Under the pieces are notes generated by a model. The model saw nothing but the letters and a program-made list of their open reading frames with translations, made no database searches and was not told where the DNA came from. Shown piece after piece: positions 45,951 through 54,012 of a stretch of 64,000 nt of DNA. Numbering within the stretch: the first letter of the stretch is position 1; each line of letters opens with the position of its first letter. A program made the translations under genes and the position numbers. Source of the DNA: Nonomuraea angiospora (GTDB lineage: Bacteria > Actinomycetota > Actinomycetes > Streptosporangiales > Streptosporangiaceae); assembly GCF_014873145.1 (NCBI RefSeq), contig NZ_JADBEK010000001.1, forward strand, positions 3,534,001-3,598,000, in the 5' to 3' direction.

Positions 45951-46370
45951 ATGGCAACCGGAGAATTCCAGGTGATGAAAGTACCGGCCGAGCAGCTCGC
46001 CGGCGTTCTCCACGGCCAGGTTGTCGATCCCGGCGCGCAACCCACGAACGTCGTGCACCGCAACGAGGGCTGGACCGTGGACGTGAGCTGGGAGGTCGCC
46101 GGCGAGCTCATCGACTGGCTGGCGGGCCGCTGGAACTTGGAGATCATCGCCGACCTGCTGGGCGGCGGTGAGACCAGGCACCCCTCACCCCCTGTCGAAC
46201 TGACCTTCACGCCTGGCTCGGGCAGGTACACCGCTTCCGTCCCGATGCGGGGTCAGCTCTCGCCCGGCACCTATGACCTGGTGGTCAACCTCACCACCAC
46301 GACCGCCGCCGGCACCGCGGGGGCGCTCGGCGGTTTCGTGGTGATCAGCAAGATTGTGGTCAAGGAATGA
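45951..46370 (+). CDS. Hypothetical beta-rich protein
   Basis: This 139-residue protein has AAGGAG well placed before its ATG and so looks real, but I do not recognise the family. It has no signal peptide. Alternating hydrophobic strands in the second half (SPPVELTFTPGSGRY; GTYDLVVNLTTTT) suggest a beta-sandwich, and the Trp-rich WTVDVSWEVAGELIDWLAGRW is distinctive. Its stop overlaps the start of the next gene by 4 nt (ATGA), so the two are probably made together. Confidence 0.65.
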   Translation: MATGEFQVMKVPAEQLAGVLHGQVVDPGAQPTNVVHRNEGWTVDVSWEVAGELIDWLAGRWNLEIIADLLGGGETRHPSPPVELTFTPGSGRYTASVPMRGQLSPGTYDLVVNLTTTTAAGTAGALGGFVVISKIVVKE

Positions 46371-46735
46371 GGGCCGCCGCCCCGGGCGGCCCGCCCGGGG
46401 CGGCCGTGGACGGAGCCGCCATGTCTCTGGTGCTCAACCCCGTGTGGTGGGATCACGGCCGGTCCGGTCCCGCGGCGATGGGCGCGCTGATCGCCACCGA
46501 TCGCCTGCTGTCCTACGTGACGAACGAGGAGACGGTCTTCACCCTGGCCCGCGCCGACATCCGGGCGAGCTGGCGGCCCCTGCGCGTCGACCTCACGTGC
46601 GCCGGGCGCCGCTTCCGGCTGCGCTTCCTGCCGCCGGGGGCCCTGCCGCGGCCGACCGGCGTCCTGCAAGCCCGCCGTAAGTCACGCGCCCTACGCTCCT
46701 GGCTGGCGGCCACGGGGGAAAGACCGGCCGCCTGA
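46367..46735 (+). CDS. Hypothetical protein, possible PH-like (GRAM/bPH) domain
   Basis: The 122-residue protein starts inside the previous stop codon. ATDRLLSYVTNEETVFTLAR with the following DIRASWRPLRVDLTCAGRRF and LRFLPPG has the strand pattern of small PH/GRAM-like domains, which bind lipids or proteins, but this is a pattern judgement only. The N-terminal 18 residues are Gly/Pro/Ala-rich; a start at the internal ATG (46421) is also possible. Confidence 0.55.
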   Translation: MRAAAPGGPPGAAVDGAAMSLVLNPVWWDHGRSGPAAMGALIATDRLLSYVTNEETVFTLARADIRASWRPLRVDLTCAGRRFRLRFLPPGALPRPTGVLQARRKSRALRSWLAATGERPAA

Positions 46736-46794
46736 CGTATCTGACGCCGCTGGAGACGCTCTTGTCTCCTTGAGGCGAACCAACGGGAGATCCC

Positions 46795-48045
46795 ATGTCC
46801 GACACTCCGATGACCGCGGACGACGTGCTGCGCATCGCCGCTTACAAGGACCGGAGCCCGGCACTCGAAGCGATGGTCATCGCCTACAGCTACCACCGCG
46901 TCGCCGGGGACCTCGCCCAGCACCTGGGCAAGGACGCGAACAACTGGTACTGCTACGCCACCTGGACCTCCAAGGCCATCGGAGAGAGCCTCGACCTGAG
47001 CCCCGACTCTCCGTTCATCCTGGACTTCGGCCGCAGGATGCGGGTGCCCCACCGGTTCAGAAGGGTGTTCAGGGCGTTCCTGCTCACCCTGCTCGGGCCC
47101 AGCTACCAGCTCGGGCTCGCGCTCGCCAACCGGGCCATCTTCCTGGAGACCGCCAGCCTCGCGGTCAACCTGTGGAACGACTCGCCCGACCGTTTCCTCA
47201 AGGTCAGCCCGGAGTCGGACCTGACGCCGAGCCCGCCGGCGTTCCTGACGGACCTGCTGGCCGAGGCCGACCCCCGCTATCTCAAGGACGCCGCGCAGCT
47301 CCTGGTCGAGGCCAAGCGGACCGCCGACCCCGAGGCCCGCGCCGAGCTGATGTTCGGCGCCTGCGTGGCGCTGTCCGCCTACGAGCAGGCCCGCGCGCAG
47401 AAGGCCCTCGAGCTGGTGCTCTACCGGCCGGTCCGGTGGCTGACGCGGGTGTCGTGGCGCTCGCTGCGCTCGCTGGTGACCCGGCGCCGCTTCCCGAGGT
47501 TCCGCCTGTACGCCGCGCGGCACGAGGACCAGCCGTGGCTGACGCGCTGGCTGGAGGGCAAGTGGTCCTCGCTCTACACCCGCCACCTGTTCGCCGTGCA
47601 GACCCCGCTCAGCGACATCAAGGTGGGCCGGCCGCTCACCGCGCCGGAGGGCGTGGACCTGGACGAGGTCTGGGCGCCGATCCAGAACGAGAAGGTCCGC
47701 AAGCTGGCCGAGGAGTTCATCACGGCCGACCGGGAGGCGTCCACGGCCGGAGTGGCCGACTGGGTGTCCTACCGCGACCGCATGCGCTTCATCGTCAGCT
47801 ATTTCCGCGTCTACCAGCACGTGAGCGCGCTCTACGACGTGCCCTTCGCCAAGGACGTCGCCGACGGCCTCGCCCGGGAGATGGAGCTCGGGCTGGTGCC
47901 GCAGGCCGTCAACATGATGCTCACCCGGGGCGGCCGCAGGATCTACGAGTATCCGGCGGAGAGCGACCCGGACGTGTTCGAGATGGCGCACTTCGACTTC
48001 GAGCCGTTCCTGGAGGCGATCCGGCTCGACCCGTCGATGAAGTGA
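46795..48045 (+). CDS. Hypothetical 416-residue helical protein
   Basis: The ATG at 46795 follows GGGAG at about 6 nt. The protein is mostly alpha-helical, with conserved-looking aromatic stretches DANNWYCYATWTSKAIGESL and SYQLGLALANRAIFLETASL in the first third and EMAHFDFEPFLEAIRLDPS at the end. There is no signal peptide and no convincing membrane helix. I do not recognise a family. It precedes the sigma/Crp/oxygenase/cyclase set on the plus strand and may be functionally tied to it. Confidence 0.7.
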   Translation: MSDTPMTADDVLRIAAYKDRSPALEAMVIAYSYHRVAGDLAQHLGKDANNWYCYATWTSKAIGESLDLSPDSPFILDFGRRMRVPHRFRRVFRAFLLTLLGPSYQLGLALANRAIFLETASLAVNLWNDSPDRFLKVSPESDLTPSPPAFLTDLLAEADPRYLKDAAQLLVEAKRTADPEARAELMFGACVALSAYEQARAQKALELVLYRPVRWLTRVSWRSLRSLVTRRRFPRFRLYAARHEDQPWLTRWLEGKWSSLYTRHLFAVQTPLSDIKVGRPLTAPEGVDLDEVWAPIQNEKVRKLAEEFITADREASTAGVADWVSYRDRMRFIVSYFRVYQHVSALYDVPFAKDVADGLAREMELGLVPQAVNMMLTRGGRRIYEYPAESDPDVFEMAHFDFEPFLEAIRLDPSMK

Positions 48046-48046
48046 G

Positions 48047-48619
48047 TCAGTCGAGGAAGTCCCTGGTGATCTCGCGGGCCTGCAGGAGCCCGCGGAGCTT
48101 CGCGAACGTGCGGGCTCGGGTGGGCCCGATGCTCCCGACCGGCCTGCCCAGCCTGCGCGCCACGTCCACGTAGTGCGGCTCGGAGGTTTCCGTGAGCGCT
48201 CTGAACAGGACCCGCTGCGCCGCCGGCAGCTCCTCGACCAGCTCGTCGAGCGTGCCGGCCAGCCAGATCCTGGCCAGCTCCCTGTCCACGTCGTCCGTGC
48301 TGCCCAGCGTGTCGAGGTCAGGGGTGCAGATCTCCTTCGTCCGCTTGGTGAGCTTCAGGCACTCGCGGAAGGCGATGGTGGCCAGCCAGCCCGCCATGCG
48401 CTGGCCGTCCGCCACGCTCCTGAGGTTCTGCCAGGCCAGCAGCCAGGTCGTCTGGAGCACGTCCTGGGCGTCCTCGTGGCTGAGCCTGAACCGGCGGATT
48501 CGGGTCTTGAGCATGGGGCTGAACTCCTCGATCAGCCGCTCCCAGGCCATGGCGTCGCCGTCCTGGGCGGCCGATACGAGGGTGGCGGTATCGGGCCGTT
48601 CGATGGTGTCCACGTACAT
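48047..48619 (-). CDS. ECF-type sigma-70 family factor
   Basis: The 190-residue protein has sigma region 2 (MAWERLIEEFSPMLKTRI; LSHEDAQDVLQTTWLLAW) and region 4 (LPAAQRVLFRALTETS; YVDVARRLGRPVGSIGPTRA), the ECF layout. No anti-sigma gene is next to it. The ATG at 48619 has AGGGAG 6 nt upstream; the frame continues to 48676 without conservation. It diverges from the crp-like gene, and the region between contains CRP-type palindromes that could control both. Its 3' end abuts the convergent hypothetical gene by 1 nt. Confidence 0.85.
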   Translation of the reverse strand: MYVDTIERPDTATLVSAAQDGDAMAWERLIEEFSPMLKTRIRRFRLSHEDAQDVLQTTWLLAWQNLRSVADGQRMAGWLATIAFRECLKLTKRTKEICTPDLDTLGSTDDVDRELARIWLAGTLDELVEELPAAQRVLFRALTETSEPHYVDVARRLGRPVGSIGPTRARTFAKLRGLLQAREITRDFLD

Positions 48620-48713
48620 GTCGATCTCCCTGCCGGGCCGGGCACTCGGGGGGTCGCCATCACCGCCCGGCCTCACAACGGTGCGCCGAGTGATCGCCAG
48701 GGGCTGTCTCGCA

Positions 48714-48743
48714 CGTGACAGTCACGATGTGTTCCTCATCACA
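48714..48743. promoter_or_regulatory. CRP-type operator pair upstream of the crp-like gene
   Basis: TGTGTTCCTCATCACA (48728-48743) matches the CRP/GlxR consensus TGTGA-N6-TCACA at 9 of 10 positions. A perfect 13-nt palindrome, CGTGACAGTCACG (48714-48726), lies immediately beside it. Both are 59-88 nt upstream of the Crp/Fnr start and in the shared region with the divergent sigma gene. Auto- or co-regulation is inference. Confidence 0.6.
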
Positions 48744-48801
48744 ATCGGGACATCCAGGACGGTCGACTGTTCGTGCGCGGGATGCGGCCTAAAGTTCTTG
48801 C

Positions 48802-49503
48802 ATGAGCGGGTTCCCGAGCGATGTCCAGCCGGTGGCCTCCGTGCTGGCGGAGATCCCGCTGTTCCGCGTACTCGGAGAGAGCGGCATCGAGAACACGGCG
48901 CGGGCCGGGATCGCGCGGCGATACCGGGCCGGGCAGATCATCATCCACCAGGGGGATCCGGGAGAGTCCCTCTACGTGGTGCTGGACGGCCTGGTGAAGG
49001 TGGTGTTCACGACCGAGCACGGCGACGAGATCGTGCTCAACATGCTGGGCCGCGGCGACACCTTCGGCGAGCTGGCGCTGCTGGACAACTCGCCGCGCTC
49101 GGCGTCGATCGTGACGGTGCGCCCCGCGTGGGTGTTCGCGCTGCCCAGGGCGCGGCTCCTGGAGCTGATGCGCGAGCATCCCGGGCTGGCCGACGAGTTC
49201 CTTCGCCTGCTCGGCCACATGGTGCGCAGGCTCACCGACCAGGCGGCCGACCTGGCCTTCCTCGACCTGGGCGGGCGGCTGGCCAAGCTGCTGCTGCAAC
49301 TGGCCGACAAGCACGGCCACGACGACGGGGTGGTGGACCTGCCCGGGTTGACGCAGTCCGACCTCGCCGCGCTCATCGGCGCGTCGCGGCCGGCGGTCAA
49401 CCGGGCGCTGCAGTCCCTCGTGGCGAGAAACCTCATCGCCGTCAAAGGCCGGGCGATCACGCTGCTGGACGTCGCCGCCCTGCGGAAACGGGGCGGCCTC
49501 TGA
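48802..49503 (+). CDS. Crp/Fnr-family transcriptional regulator
   Basis: The 233-residue protein has a cyclic-nucleotide-binding beta barrel and a Crp winged helix. The phosphate-binding cassette FGELALLDNSPRSAS (residues 88-102) keeps the Glu and the Arg-Ser pair that hold cAMP in E. coli CRP, so nucleotide binding is plausible. The helix-turn-helix is LTQSDLAALIGASRPAVNRA. There are no Fnr-type N-terminal cysteines. It is followed by the oxygenase (22 nt) and cyclase genes on the same strand, suggesting a local second-messenger loop. Confidence 0.92.
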   Translation: MSGFPSDVQPVASVLAEIPLFRVLGESGIENTARAGIARRYRAGQIIIHQGDPGESLYVVLDGLVKVVFTTEHGDEIVLNMLGRGDTFGELALLDNSPRSASIVTVRPAWVFALPRARLLELMREHPGLADEFLRLLGHMVRRLTDQAADLAFLDLGGRLAKLLLQLADKHGHDDGVVDLPGLTQSDLAALIGASRPAVNRALQSLVARNLIAVKGRAITLLDVAALRKRGGL

Positions 49504-49525
49504 CCGAATCTGGAGTACGGGGTAG

Positions 49526-50809
49526 ATGAACGATCACGAACGCTGGCCGGAGGAGAGATTCCGCCAGCTGCGACAGCAGGCCGACCCGGACATCGACAAG
49601 GTCGTGGCCGGATACCTGGACGACCAGCCCCCGGGAAGCGGGCCCCTGGAGCTGGTGAAGGCGGTGATCCAGGAGCTGGCGGCGGCCAAGCGGGAGGCCA
49701 GGGCGCCGTCGGGCGAGCCGCCCGCCTCCGCGATCTTCGAGGCCATCGACTTCGCCGCGGACCTGCCCGATTGGGGCGACGACCGCGAGCTGCTGGCCAA
49801 GGGGCAGGCCGTCTTCGCCGACTACGGGCTCTACCAGTCGGCCGCGCTCTTCTGCAAGTGCCTGCCCATGGCGTACGTGGAGGTGTCCAGCGCCAAGGTG
49901 CTGGCCGGCGTGTCCCGGCTGGCCACGCACAGCCTCACCCGCCGGGTGGCCGAGACCGGCCAGATGCTGGTCGACGTGATGGGCTTGAAAGCGACCAACA
50001 GCCTGGAGCCGGGCCGCCCCGGGCACACCACGGCGCTCGGCCTGCGGATCCTGCACTCCTTCGTCCGCGCCCTGGTCAACGAGCGGTTCGGTGACCACTG
50101 GGACACCGCGCGGTTCGGCCCTCCGGTCAACCAGGAGCTCCTGCTGGCCACCATCTTCGACTTCTCTGTGGTGACATGGGAGGCTTTGGAGAGTATGGGC
50201 GTGACGCTCTCCGAGGAGCAGCGTGCGGCCCACCTCTACACGTGGAGCGTGTTCGGCCATCTCATGGGCGTGGAGGCCTGCCGTGACCGGCCTCTCACGC
50301 TCGAGGACGTCGAGCCGGTCAGCGAGCGCCTGGGCCGCCTGTACGAGTCCAGCGACGAGGGCCGCCGGCTGATGGCCAGGCTGCTGGAGGAGATGGAGGA
50401 GTTCATGCACCTGGGGTGGCGCAAGCTGCCGCGCAGCCTGGTGCACTGGGTCTTCCGCGACGCCGAGTACGGCGCCGACCGGGTGCCCGAGCTGCTGGGC
50501 GTGCCCAAGCCCGCCTGGTGGTTCACCGCGCTGTTCGCGGCCGGCCGGGCGGCCAACCGGCACGCGGCGCTCGCCGGCCCGGTGGACGGCGTCGTCCGCT
50601 GGCTGGTGCGCAGGCTCGGGCGGCAGATCGTGGTCGCCCTGGTCGACCGCCACTCCGACGGGCAGGCGGCCTTCCGGATCCCCGAGGACCTGGCCGGCGC
50701 CTGGCGGATCAGGCAGTCGCGCACCGCCGTGAAGACGCGCGAGCTGCGCCGCACGGTCCGCCAGAAGGTACGCGCGCCCGCGCGGCGGCTGAAGGAGCGG
50801 CCCACGTGA
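49526..50809 (+). CDS. DUF2236 / MpaB-type oxygenase (rubber-oxygenase-like)
   Basis: The 427-residue protein matches the DUF2236 family, which includes latex-clearing protein Lcp, a b-type haem dioxygenase, and fungal MpaB. Diagnostic segments are SAALFCKCLPMAYVEVSSAK, RRVAETGQMLVDVM, LRILHSFVRAL with the probable haem-ligand His, and NQELLLATIFDFSVV. There is no signal peptide, so unlike Lcp it is cytoplasmic. It sits between the Crp-like regulator and the cyclase, and its stop overlaps the cyclase GTG start. The substrate is unknown; isoprenoid or lipid cleavage is a guess from the family. Confidence 0.85.
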   Translation: MNDHERWPEERFRQLRQQADPDIDKVVAGYLDDQPPGSGPLELVKAVIQELAAAKREARAPSGEPPASAIFEAIDFAADLPDWGDDRELLAKGQAVFADYGLYQSAALFCKCLPMAYVEVSSAKVLAGVSRLATHSLTRRVAETGQMLVDVMGLKATNSLEPGRPGHTTALGLRILHSFVRALVNERFGDHWDTARFGPPVNQELLLATIFDFSVVTWEALESMGVTLSEEQRAAHLYTWSVFGHLMGVEACRDRPLTLEDVEPVSERLGRLYESSDEGRRLMARLLEEMEEFMHLGWRKLPRSLVHWVFRDAEYGADRVPELLGVPKPAWWFTALFAAGRAANRHAALAGPVDGVVRWLVRRLGRQIVVALVDRHSDGQAAFRIPEDLAGAWRIRQSRTAVKTRELRRTVRQKVRAPARRLKERPT

Positions 50810-53800
50810 CCGCTCCGCACCCGCCCGGCACGCTGACCACGGCGACCATCCTGTTCACCGACGTGGTCAGCTCCACCGCCATGCGCATCAGGCTGGGCGA
50901 GGAACGCGCCAACGAGGTCTTCCGCCGCCTCTACCAGCTGCTGCGCTCCGTGGTGACGGCCAGCGGCTCGACGTTCACCAAGAGCCTGGGCGACGGGCTG
51001 ATGGCCGTCTTCGACTCGGCCACGGCCGGGCTCGACGCGGTCATCGCGGTGCAGCAGGCGGTGGCCGACGAGAACGAGCGCGCCCCCGACAAGATCTCCA
51101 TCAGGGCCGCGCTCGCCGCCGGCGACGTGTGCTGGGGCCACGACGACGTCAGCGGGCTGCCGACCGTCGAGGCGGCCCGGCTGGTCGCCATCGCGGAGGG
51201 CGGCCAGGTGCTCTGCACCGACCTGGTGCGGCGGCTGGCGCAGGGGCGCAGCCGGCACGAGTTCAAGGACCTGGGGCGGCTGCCGGGCAAGGGGCTGCGC
51301 GAGCCGCTGCACACGTACGAGCTGCACTGGCAGAGCGCCGACCACCACCAGGTCGCCGGGCTGGCCCCCTGGCTGGAGGACGGTCACGTGCTGCCGTTCG
51401 TCGGCCGGGACGAGCAGCTTCGGGCGCTCGACGGGGAGCTGGCGGCCGCCGAGTTCGGCAGCGGGCTGGTGATCCTCCAGGGCGACTCGGGGGTCGGCAA
51501 GACCCGGCTGGCCTCGGAGGTGGCCCGGCGGGCGCTCAAGCGGCAGTTCACGGTGCTGGCCGGGCGGTGCACGGATCCGGCGCGACGGGCGTACGAGCCG
51601 ATCGCCGGGGCGGTGGAGCGGCTGGCCCGCGCCTCGCCCGCGCTGCTGCTGCGGGCCGGGGTCGACCAGCAGTGCGGCCAGCTCGTCCGCCTGGCGCCCT
51701 CGCTGGCCGCTCCCCCGCTGTCGCTGGAGGTGCCGCCGGCCACCGAGCCCGTGTCGGAGCGCTACCACCTGATGGCGGCGGCCCGCACGCTGATCGAGCG
51801 CCTGACCACCGTACGGCCGGTGCTGCTGGTGATCGACGACCTGCAGTGGGCGACGCTGGAGTCGCTGCAGATGCTCAACGCCCTCATGTGGGACGCCGAG
51901 GCCCTGCCGCTGCTGGTCCTGGCCACCTCCCGGCCCCTGCCGGCCGAGTCGGCCCTGCCGGAGCTGCACAAGCTGACGGCCGACAGCCGCACGATCGAGG
52001 TCCCCTCCTTCGGGCTGGACGAGGTCTCCCACGCGCTGGCGGAGGTGCGCGGCGGCGGCGACTCCGAGCTGCTGCACCGGATCACCGGCGGCAACGCGTT
52101 CCTGGTCAGCGAGGTGGTCAGGGAGCTGGCCGCGGGCAAGGAGCTCGACGGCCTGACCGTGCCCGACTCGGTGACGAGGATGGTCATGGCCCGGCTCTCG
52201 CAGCTCCACCCGGACGCCAGAGACCTGGTCAACCTGCTGGCCGTCGGCGAGCGCATGGAGTCGGCCGAGCTGCGGGCGGGGCTGGGGCTCGACGAGGCCC
52301 GGTTCGTGGCCGCGGTGGAGGAGGCCATGGGCGCGGGCCTGGTCACCATGTCGGACGGCGGGTCCTGCCGGTTCTCCCACGAGCTGACCAGGACCGCCCT
52401 CTACGCCAAGCTGTCCGCGCCGCGGGCGGGGCTGCTGCACGGCAAGGTCGCCGACGCGTTGTGCCAGACCGACCCGCGCGCCATGGAGACCCGCCCGTAC
52501 GTCGTGGCCACCCACCTGCTGGCCGCCGCCGGGCACGGCCGCGACCCGGCCCGGGTCAGCGCGGCGGCGGACGCGGCCGTGCACGCCGCGCAGCACGCGC
52601 TGGCCGGGCTGGCGCACCGCGAGGCGGTCACCTGGTACCAGCGGGTGCTCGACCTGCTGGCGGACTTCCCCGGCGCCACGCTGGAGCGGCGCGCGGAGCT
52701 GCTGGTGGAGTGCGGCCGGGCCATGTGGCTGGCCGGCGACCCCGACGCCAGGCAGACCCTCGTGCGGGCGGCCGACCTGGCCAGGCAGTGCGAGCGCCCC
52801 GACCTGATCGTGATCGCGGCGCTGGGCGGCGACCGCGGCTTCTCCACCATCTCGGCGGCGCCCGACCAGCAGCGCATCGCGCTGCTGACCGAGGCGCGCA
52901 AGCTGGTCGACTCCACCGACCTGAGCACCCGGGCGCTGCTGGCGGCCCAGCTCGCCTCCGAGCTCATCTGGGCGCCCGACGGCGAGCGGCGTTTCGCGCT
53001 GAGCGACGAGGCCGTGGCGCTGGCCCGCAAGTCGGGCGATCCGCGCACGCTCGCCGGCGTGCTGGGGCAGCGCAGCCTGACGATCATCCCCGCCGACCCG
53101 CTGCACCAGCGCCACCGCGACGGCGACGAGATGCTGGAGGCGGCCCGCCGCACGGGGGACGACCTGGCGCTGTTCCACGCGTACGTGCAGCGCACTCCCC
53201 CCGTGCTCGACGGCGGCGACGTGACCAGGGCCGCGATGCTGCTCGACGAGGCCGACGAGCTGGCGCGCCGGCTGGCCCAGCCGCACCTCAACTGGCTGAT
53301 CGGCTACTCCAGGGCCGGCCTGACGCTGATGCAGGGCGACCTGGCGCAGGCCGAGTCGGAGGCGCAGGCGGCCCTGCGGCTCGGCTCGGAGATCGGCCGC
53401 CGCCTGGAGGCCGTGGCCATCTACGCGGAGCAGATCGCCGAGATCCGGCGGTTGCAGGGGCGGCTGTGGGAGCTGCGCGACCGGCTCCGCCGGGCCGCCC
53501 AGGCGCCGCGCGTGGACCCGGTCCACGCGATCCTGCGGTATCTGTGCGAGCTGCCCGACGAGGAGGCCGGGCCCCTGCTCGACCGCATCCTGGCTGACAA
53601 CGGGGCCGTTCCGCCCCGCAACATGGCCCACCGGCCCGCCCTGGACAACCTCGCCGTGGCCGCCTCCCACCTGGGGCGGGCGGAGCTGGCCGGGCAGCTG
53701 TACGGCTCGCTGGCCGCCGACGGGGAGACGTTCGGCCACGGGGCGGTGGCCCACCACTGCGGGCACCACTACCTGGCGCACCTGTGCGTGGCGACGGGCT

Positions 53801-54012
53801 CGCCGCAGCGGGCGGCCGAGCACTTCGAGGCGGCGGCCGAGGTGCACGAGCGGCAGGGGGTGCCGCTCATGCTGGCGGAGTCGCTGCTCGACTGGGCCGA
53901 CCTGCTGGACGGGGGCGAGGTGAGCGGGCCCAAGCCGGCCGACCTGCGCAAGTGGTGCGCCTCGCTGCTGCCGGGGCGCGGCGCGATCCTGCTGGAGCGG
54001 CGGCTGCGCTGA
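50806..54012 (+). CDS. Class III nucleotide cyclase-AAA ATPase-helical repeat protein
   Basis: The 1068-residue protein has three parts: a class III cyclase domain (about 1-170), an ATPase domain (about 195-480; Walker A GDSGVGKT, Walker B VLLVIDDLQWA), and a long TPR-like helical region to the end. There is no LuxR-type DNA-binding domain. The cyclase keeps both metal Asp residues (ILFTDVVSST; SLGDGLMAVF) and the substrate Lys before GDG. The usual transition-state Asn four residues before the Arg in VNxAAR is Val here (TVEAAR), so activity is uncertain. The start is a GTG inside the oxygenase stop, with AAGGAG upstream. Confidence 0.88.
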   Translation: MTAPHPPGTLTTATILFTDVVSSTAMRIRLGEERANEVFRRLYQLLRSVVTASGSTFTKSLGDGLMAVFDSATAGLDAVIAVQQAVADENERAPDKISIRAALAAGDVCWGHDDVSGLPTVEAARLVAIAEGGQVLCTDLVRRLAQGRSRHEFKDLGRLPGKGLREPLHTYELHWQSADHHQVAGLAPWLEDGHVLPFVGRDEQLRALDGELAAAEFGSGLVILQGDSGVGKTRLASEVARRALKRQFTVLAGRCTDPARRAYEPIAGAVERLARASPALLLRAGVDQQCGQLVRLAPSLAAPPLSLEVPPATEPVSERYHLMAAARTLIERLTTVRPVLLVIDDLQWATLESLQMLNALMWDAEALPLLVLATSRPLPAESALPELHKLTADSRTIEVPSFGLDEVSHALAEVRGGGDSELLHRITGGNAFLVSEVVRELAAGKELDGLTVPDSVTRMVMARLSQLHPDARDLVNLLAVGERMESAELRAGLGLDEARFVAAVEEAMGAGLVTMSDGGSCRFSHELTRTALYAKLSAPRAGLLHGKVADALCQTDPRAMETRPYVVATHLLAAAGHGRDPARVSAAADAAVHAAQHALAGLAHREAVTWYQRVLDLLADFPGATLERRAELLVECGRAMWLAGDPDARQTLVRAADLARQCERPDLIVIAALGGDRGFSTISAAPDQQRIALLTEARKLVDSTDLSTRALLAAQLASELIWAPDGERRFALSDEAVALARKSGDPRTLAGVLGQRSLTIIPADPLHQRHRDGDEMLEAARRTGDDLALFHAYVQRTPPVLDGGDVTRAAMLLDEADELARRLAQPHLNWLIGYSRAGLTLMQGDLAQAESEAQAALRLGSEIGRRLEAVAIYAEQIAEIRRLQGRLWELRDRLRRAAQAPRVDPVHAILRYLCELPDEEAGPLLDRILADNGAVPPRNMAHRPALDNLAVAASHLGRAELAGQLYGSLAADGETFGHGAVAHHCGHHYLAHLCVATGSPQRAAEHFEAAAEVHERQGVPLMLAESLLDWADLLDGGEVSGPKPADLRKWCASLLPGRGAILLERRLR

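Follow-up and report, generated by a model that had tools for sequence, protein, structure and literature searches.

A stretch of 64,000 nucleotides from the 13.09 Mb single-contig genome of Nonomuraea angiospora (hereafter the window) carries a locus of five genes that we read, with a probability of about one half, as a conserved signalling module. The block comprises the genes for a 416-aa protein (U416), an extracytoplasmic function (ECF)-type sigma factor, a Crp/Fnr-family regulator, a DUF2236 protein and a 1068-aa protein that joins a class III nucleotidyl cyclase domain to a STAND-type part (cyclase-STAND). Judged from their sequences, the components are of known kinds and the combination of them appears to be new. 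The closest named record was from Nonomuraea jabiensis (98% identity, DUF2236 protein), in a search that possibly excluded records of the same genome. The features of the locus are as follows, in positions of the window.

46795-48045, + strand: U416, 416 aa, first gene of the block; no Pfam, NCBIfam or PADLOC match; co-occurs with the Crp, DUF2236 and cyclase genes
48047-48619, - strand: ECF-type sigma factor, convergent with U416 and divergent from Crp; Sigma70_r2 36.7 bits, TIGR02937 45.2 bits (cut-off 42.9)
48704-48721, no strand: palindrome CTGTC-N8-GACAG, found by eye in the spacer alignment
48728-48743, no strand: Crp-type site TGTGTTCCTCATCACA, a candidate operator; TGTG-N8-CACA in 25 of 25 distinct spacers, second genus included
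48767-48795, + strand: probable crp promoter, with -35-like CTGTTC, 17 nt and -10 TAAAGT; the ATG follows 6 nt on
48802-49503, + strand: Crp/Fnr-family regulator; cNMP_binding 98.4 bits and HTH_Crp_2 64 bits, both above cut-off
49526-50809, + strand: DUF2236 (MPAB/Lcp catalytic) haem-type protein; PF09995 (MPAB_Lcp_cat) 43.6 bits, cut-off 23
50806-54012, + strand: cyclase-STAND, 1068 aa, with a class III nucleotidyl cyclase domain (about residues 1-178), a STAND-type AAA_16 NTPase (about 195-560) and a TPR-like C-terminus; Guanylate_cyc 28.5 bits (cut-off 21.9), AAA_16 84.1 bits, TPR_12 below cut-off

A preliminary description of the locus had placed the Crp, DUF2236 and cyclase-AAA genes consecutively on one strand, the last two overlapping (GTGA), with an ECF sigma factor gene diverging from crp. 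Coordinates and order were confirmed, and so was the divergent ECF gene, whose product gave no Pfam region-4 match. The overlap measures 4 nt in the window; of 25 other loci compared, 20 have the same length and 5 have 1 nt. U416 had been overlooked and is an additional member of the block. The same description had proposed that messenger producer, receptor, sites and output enzyme lie in one locus. The locus does bring together the presumed messenger producer, a candidate receptor and a conserved Crp-type site, whereas the output role given to DUF2236 can equally be read as a haem-based input.

Orthologues of the Crp, DUF2236 and cyclase genes (cut-offs 1e-60, 1e-60 and 1e-100) were found in 31 of 54 Nonomuraea genomes, and none at these cut-offs in the remaining 23, among which the 63% complete genome G521 was counted. 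When completeness of 90% or more and contamination of 5% or less were required, 23 of 41 genomes were carriers. Across 345 genomes of the order, the U416 profile matched the identical 31 Nonomuraea genomes and nine others (G115, G628, G561, G553 and five weaker). The four presence sets are identical, and in all 31 carriers the genes share one contig, strand and order, with match gaps of 25-70 bp between Crp and DUF2236 and of -1 to 86 bp between DUF2236 and cyclase. The ECF gene was found wherever the flank sufficed (16 of 16 records, L037-L052, and 9 of 9 loci, L008-L016). A survey of co-occurrence elsewhere, the check named in the preliminary description, thus gave an all-or-none pattern in Nonomuraea and the order U416-ECF-Crp-DUF2236 in a second genus (G561).

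On a midpoint-rooted gyrB tree, which covers 53 genomes, all but G521 (gyrB below cut-off), and in which several inner nodes have a support of 0.2-0.4, the presence pattern takes 3 changes, against a mean of 17.1 and a minimum of 13 in 500 shuffled labellings. It is readable as one gain followed by two whole-block losses (G504; G140, G523 and G138). Such losses would fit a functional unit and likewise the plain deletion of linked genes.

In 5 of 16 long records (L037, L039, L040, L041 and L051) the five genes together lie inverted between flanks that keep their place. A 139-aa gene (45951-46370, no Pfam match) is present in all 16 and stands before U416, as in the window, in 11; an SDR gene is present in 15. 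In the inverted records the 139-aa gene comes after the cyclase gene and the SDR gene before U416. Since the segment from U416 to the cyclase inverts as one piece at one chromosomal site, these two genes are the ends of the unit, and the 139-aa and SDR genes, whose positions do not change with the inversion, were rejected as module members. P450, HAD and DUF4031 genes of the flank were each found in 9 or 10 of the 16 records.

These flanks bear on the proposal that U416 and a DUF2236 oxygenase form a biosynthetic or detoxifying pair that has its own local regulators by chance, which we regard as unlikely. The DUF2236 proteins whose function is known, Lcp and by family name MpaB, act as oxygenases, the genes for U416, DUF2236 and the cyclase occur together even where ECF and Crp are missing, and the conserved flanks include cytochrome P450 and SDR genes. 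However, the flanks do not turn with the block, which gives no clear sign that they belong to it. The block itself holds no transporter and no further enzyme, the catalytic Glu of Lcp is absent, and a 1068-aa cyclase-STAND protein would be an unusual choice as the most constant partner of an oxygenase.

Within the proposed module, coupling of the cyclase to Crp is the step we hold most firmly, as the best reading of the sequences and not as proof. At the positions of the first metal Asp, Lys, second metal Asp, substrate Asp, Asn and Arg of the cyclase active site, all 26 distinct sequences of at least 60% identity have D,K,D,D,V,R. When 16 Nonomuraea records were compared with the window by a simple counting method on codons, all 16 comparisons thus sharing the window sequence, the cyclase domain had the lowest median ratio of non-synonymous to synonymous substitution rates (dN/dS, 0.134) and the highest identity (92.7%) of the block. 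The other medians were 0.202 for ECF, 0.273 and 0.274 for Crp, 0.294 for TPR, 0.295 for NOD, 0.309 for DUF2236 and 0.359 for U416.

The same domain could be a nucleotide-binding regulatory pseudo-enzyme of the STAND ATPase; Crp would then read cyclic AMP (cAMP) from elsewhere or no nucleotide, and the genes would be together through co-expression only. We consider this rather unlikely. The transition-state Asn is absent throughout, being replaced by Val or Ala in every cyclase sequence examined, and two genomes of a third genus (G115 and G628) retain the gene with a damaged active site, which suggests a role without catalysis. A Leu at Crp position 127, the low Pfam score of the cyclase and the lack of added domain constraint at the distance of G561 point in the same direction. 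The missing Asn is not decisive, because Ma1120 of M. avium is an active adenylyl cyclase that has K101, D157 and R168 together with Ala164 in the Asn place, and changing Ala164 to Asn drastically reduced its activity (PMC4215837). Further points against a pseudo-enzyme are that the strongest purifying selection of the operon within Nonomuraea falls on the cyclase domain and that the 26 sequences all retain the two metal Asp, the substrate Lys/Asp and the Arg. Selection and the Ma1120-like residue set together argue against an inactive cyclase.

Outside Nonomuraea, the active site was compared between genomes with and without the regulator. In G561 (another genus, 83% complete) one contig carries U416 (47%), the divergent ECF gene (52%), Crp (65%) and, cut off by the contig end, the beginning of DUF2236, arranged as in the window; a separate contig has a DUF2236 gene from residue 102 onwards and then a cyclase gene of 61-62% identity, with the active-site set intact. 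G115 and G628 have U416, DUF2236 and cyclase next to one another and lack ECF and the module Crp; their best Crp-family matches are paralogues of 40-41% identity located elsewhere. In these two genomes the six positions are degenerate (G115: D,Q,G,G,A,R; G628: D,R,D,E,V,R). That active site and Crp vary together supports the predicted coupling of the two proteins. G561 also has a broken second cyclase copy (L108, contig G561:C516; N- and C-terminal pieces with an internal TAG), which reads E,R,N,D,V,R at these positions and lies near a different Crp-family gene.

The module Crp has the intact nucleotide cassette that had been claimed for it: G89, E90, R99, S100 and A101, which by alignment we take to be G71, E72, R82, S83 and A84 of E. 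coli CRP, are kept in 29 of 29 distinct sequences of at least 60% identity. Nucleotide binding is likely. The paralogues of G115 and G628 have Thr/Asn at the positions of Thr127 and Ser128, as in the M. tuberculosis protein, and the module Crp is 31-41% identical to Crp-family paralogues of G000, G115 and G628. Filing it as a functional CRP was rejected: it has Leu/Thr in place of Thr127/Ser128, and PRK11753, the CRP equivalog, gave 101.4 against a cut-off of 266. Since these two contacts are not kept and the score is below cut-off, the protein is filed only as a Crp/Fnr-family regulator.

The spacer between the ECF gene and crp was compared in 25 distinct sequences, 24 of them from Nonomuraea and the other from G561, and all 25 have TGTG and TCACA unchanged. 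CRP-type sites, in the plural, had been noted there; one strong site (48728-48743) stands, and the plural does not, the second palindrome a few bases to its left being conserved in many spacers by eye and not matching the Crp consensus. The pattern TGTG-N8-CACA was observed twice in the window against 0.63 expected, and 10 of 100 shuffles reach 2; taken alone the pattern would be weak evidence, and its presence in all 25 spacers is what counts. The S. coelicolor consensus GTG(N)6GNCAC was discarded as evidence, since at this GC content it occurs no more often than chance would explain (24 times in the window against 20.1 expected); the conserved site is not an exact match to it. TA[AG]AGT is found six nt before the ATG in 24 of 24 Nonomuraea spacers and not in G561, and the crp start looks leaderless. 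From the site centre to the A of the ATG there are 66.5 nt, or 75.5 in three spacers. Upstream of U416 none of 17 regions of 220 bp contained a Crp-type site. The 17 aligned regions share a conserved TGCAAG...CGCAAG-like repeat followed by a TACGCT-like -10 (about 46600-46790 in the window), so that U416 probably has a separate promoter under another regulator.

Several findings weigh against reading the block as one signalling module. Adjacency and co-inheritance are also explained by physical linkage alone. The site centre, at -66.5 or -75.5 from the presumed start, is out of phase with the class I CRP positions of E. coli, so activation is not implied. The absence of the Crp-type site from G115 and G628 adds nothing, as these genomes lack the ECF-crp segment altogether. 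All 29 Crp sequences have Leu at the position of Thr127 and Thr at that of Ser128, C-helix positions that in CRP contact adenine, and E. coli CRP variants with leucine at position 127 can act independently of cAMP. Four further Crp-family matches are present in the genome of the window. The Guanylate_cyc match is weak (28.5 bits, cut-off 21.9). In G561, where Crp is present and the residues are intact, the cyclase domain is 63% identical, compared with 65% for NOD and 61% for TPR; the extra constraint is thus seen within Nonomuraea and not at this distance. The corresponding values are 47% versus 51% and 59% in G115 and 49% versus 42% and 58% in G628, the cyclase domain thus being the best-conserved part in none of the three genomes. 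The correlation between Crp and cyclase residues comes from two genomes of one genus and perhaps from a single event. Finally, no relative of the module Crp or ECF was seen in the examined stretch of two more distant genomes with U416 relatives, G726 and G723, the contig of the latter ending inside the cyclase.

If the block works as a module, the DUF2236 haem protein and/or U416 would sense a signal, probably a lipophilic ligand, oxygen or redox state, and hand it on to the STAND-type (AAA/TPR) part of the cyclase protein. The cyclase domain, with the residues and selection described above, would make a cyclic nucleotide, most likely cAMP. Crp would bind it in the cassette and act, with either sign, at the single conserved TGTG-N8-CACA site, from which it may set the crp-DUF2236-cyclase operon as feedback and/or the ECF gene. 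The ECF factor would relay the response to unlinked genes.

For DUF2236 the nearest characterized protein is Lcp of Streptomyces sp. K30 (PDB 5o1l/5o1m), a haem protein whose 3/3 globin fold resembles that of globin-coupled sensors; it depends crucially on Arg164, Thr168 and His198, while Lys167 shows 59% conservation among Lcps (PMC5522427). The window protein belongs to the same Pfam family (1e-9 with the profile) and keeps the equivalents of R164, T168 and the haem ligand H198. Unlike Lcp, it has Glu for Lys167, does not conserve Glu148, which is aligned with Lys, and keeps other gene company. Lys167 does not define Lcp because of its 59% conservation. A role as rubber oxygenase is unlikely on these residues. 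The Arg-Glu-Thr-His set was rejected as the mark of a special subtype, being also present in 33 of 36 ordinary DUF2236 relatives; the four residues therefore indicate a haem protein of the family and nothing more special.

DUF2236 could instead be the sensor, a globin-like haem protein gating the cyclase, and the module a split haem-based oxygen, redox or ligand sensor with its own messenger and transcription factor. We hold this idea as tentative and, on balance, improbable. In its favour are the likeness of the Lcp globin fold to globin-coupled sensors (PMC5522427), the retention of R164, T168 and H198 without the catalytic Glu148, and the 4-nt or, less often, 1-nt overlap between the end of its gene and the cyclase start (20 and 5 of 25 loci). 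S. meliloti offers a precedent in CyaC, a haem-b cyclase that complexes with the Crp-like Clr (PMC10463352). In G726, of the same phylum and another class, a DUF2236 gene that neighbours a U416 relative overlaps by 4 nt the gene of a PAS-GGDEF-EAL protein, a different second-messenger enzyme of cyclic di-GMP type (L178, 10065-15103). Against a sensor stand the fact that this is a single GGDEF case, the faster evolution of DUF2236 than of the cyclase domain (dN/dS 0.31), haem-site residues that are the same in ordinary relatives and so are no sensor mark, and a structure model of DUF2236 that was unusable (mean predicted local distance difference test score, pLDDT, 38.6).

The genomic control also goes against sensing as a general role of the family. 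No class III cyclase, GGDEF, U416 or Crp relative was found around other DUF2236 genes of the order in any of 40 regions, these being 40 of 44 distant DUF2236 matches, taken with their flanks and searched with a simple gene caller and a cyclase model built from ten sequences. Three regions were shortened by contig ends, and DUF2236 itself was left uncalled in 5 of 40 and recovered by tblastn in 36 of 40. One region held an AAA_16-type relative without a cyclase domain. The notion that DUF2236 generally goes with cyclases was thus rejected, and the cyclase association is a property of the module and not of DUF2236 at large. Within the module, the gene overlap and the single G726 case make an input role for DUF2236 about as reasonable as an output role. 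A broader version, in which some DUF2236 proteins, together with a U416 partner, are separate haem-based input subunits of second-messenger enzymes (the STAND cyclase here, GGDEF-EAL in G726) that drive a private circuit with its own Crp-family regulator, is more speculative still, and we give it little credence. A second DUF2236 copy (73-74% identity), with an internal TGA and without the rest of the module, was noted on a 48 kb contig (L101, G513:C2).

The U416 family (L058, L095-L100, L177, L178) has WxxFxxWxS, DW and EQxRxQ motifs and is spread thinly across the phylum in varied gene contexts. A low-confidence AlphaFold2 model (mean pLDDT 60) is mostly helical; its best PDB match had an E-value of 0.4 and a probability of 0.15, and the best match of the profile among PDB sequences was to histones (E-value 0.042). 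Nine members compared with Pfam gave a best E-value of 0.021 and no match common to more than two of them. That U416 might be a second DUF2236 was dismissed on a profile comparison (probability 0.2%).

In a class-wide sample a single U416 query matched 4 of 394 genomes (three Nonomuraea and the distant G377), and the DUF2236 profile at 1e-40 likewise 4 of 394 (three Nonomuraea and G427). The U416 profile matched 5 of 396 genomes of a phylum-wide sample, the window's own together with G723, G726, G936 and G1037. In these samples only the best first-look candidates were scored per genome (four in three of the searches), and relatives may have been missed. In G723 a cyclase C-terminus (64% identity) lies immediately upstream of U416 at the contig end; the U416 frame is interrupted there and was compared in pieces only. 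Neither a DUF2236 nor a cyclase relative lies beside the U416 relative of G936, and no relative of the module DUF2236, Crp or cyclase was present in the examined stretch around those of G377, G553, G544, G545, G549, G094 and G025.

Among known systems, CyaC-CycR-Clr of S. meliloti is alike in tying a cyclase to haem or redox sensing and to a Crp-like regulator, and has been proposed to serve specific cAMP signalling among 28 cyclases (PMC10463352). It differs in that the haem is inside a membrane cyclase and that a TetR-type CycR, not a Crp, is encoded beside cyaC; the available part of that paper mentions no DUF2236, ECF or U416. Ma1120 shares with the window cyclase the Lys/Asp substrate pair, the Arg and the absence of the transition-state Asn (PMC4215837), at a similarity of 3.2e-11 (best solved structure 3mr7, 1.3e-17), whereas the window protein has added STAND and TPR parts and Crp, DUF2236 and U416 neighbours. 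The module Crp resembles actinobacterial Crp, GlxR and Rv3676 in fold, cassette and type of DNA site (GTG-N8-CAC for GlxR; PMC10033298, PMC5449483), and differs from them in being encoded in the cyclase operon and in its Leu/Thr at the Thr127/Ser128 positions.

Two defined families were tried and rejected for the locus. The TOMM kinase/cyclase family (TIGR03903) gave 98.6 bits for the cyclase-STAND protein against an equivalog cut-off of 705.75. In Pycsar, a class III-type cyclase (PycC) is encoded beside an effector with a cyclic-nucleotide-binding domain, a TIR or membrane protein. A cyclase gene beside the gene for such a domain is found here too, but the partner in the window is of the DNA-binding Crp type; no Pfam TIR was found in the five block proteins, and PADLOC gave 22.8 bits for PycC and 43.4 bits for PycTIR, the latter on the cyclic-nucleotide-binding part only, both being weak matches confined to domains in common.

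No description of the module was found in the literature on DUF2236 and cyclases, Nonomuraea and cyclic AMP, class III cyclase-Crp operons, globin-coupled sensors or Pycsar, a search that left out most subscription journals, and the available part of PMC13118837 has nothing on the U416-cyclase locus. How one cyclase addresses one receptor through a shared diffusible messenger is an old question for bacteria with many cyclases. The module, in which a single inherited block unites a cyclase with a Crp-family regulator, a conserved Crp-type site and a sigma factor, would be a tractable test case for cyclase-receptor specificity. It gives DUF2236 a genetic context outside rubber degradation and the U416 family a context, and it sets a STAND cyclase beside a co-inherited transcription factor.

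Two loci from the distant genomes were noted in passing. In G427 (L136, 3048-12475) the DUF2236 gene follows dnaK-grpE-dnaJ-hspR-like genes, as judged by eye, and a cyclase-AAA gene of different descent (27%) lies nearby on the opposite strand. In G377 (L058) the U416 relative adjoins ABC transporter genes and, again by eye, lanthipeptide-type genes (LanC/dehydratase-like).

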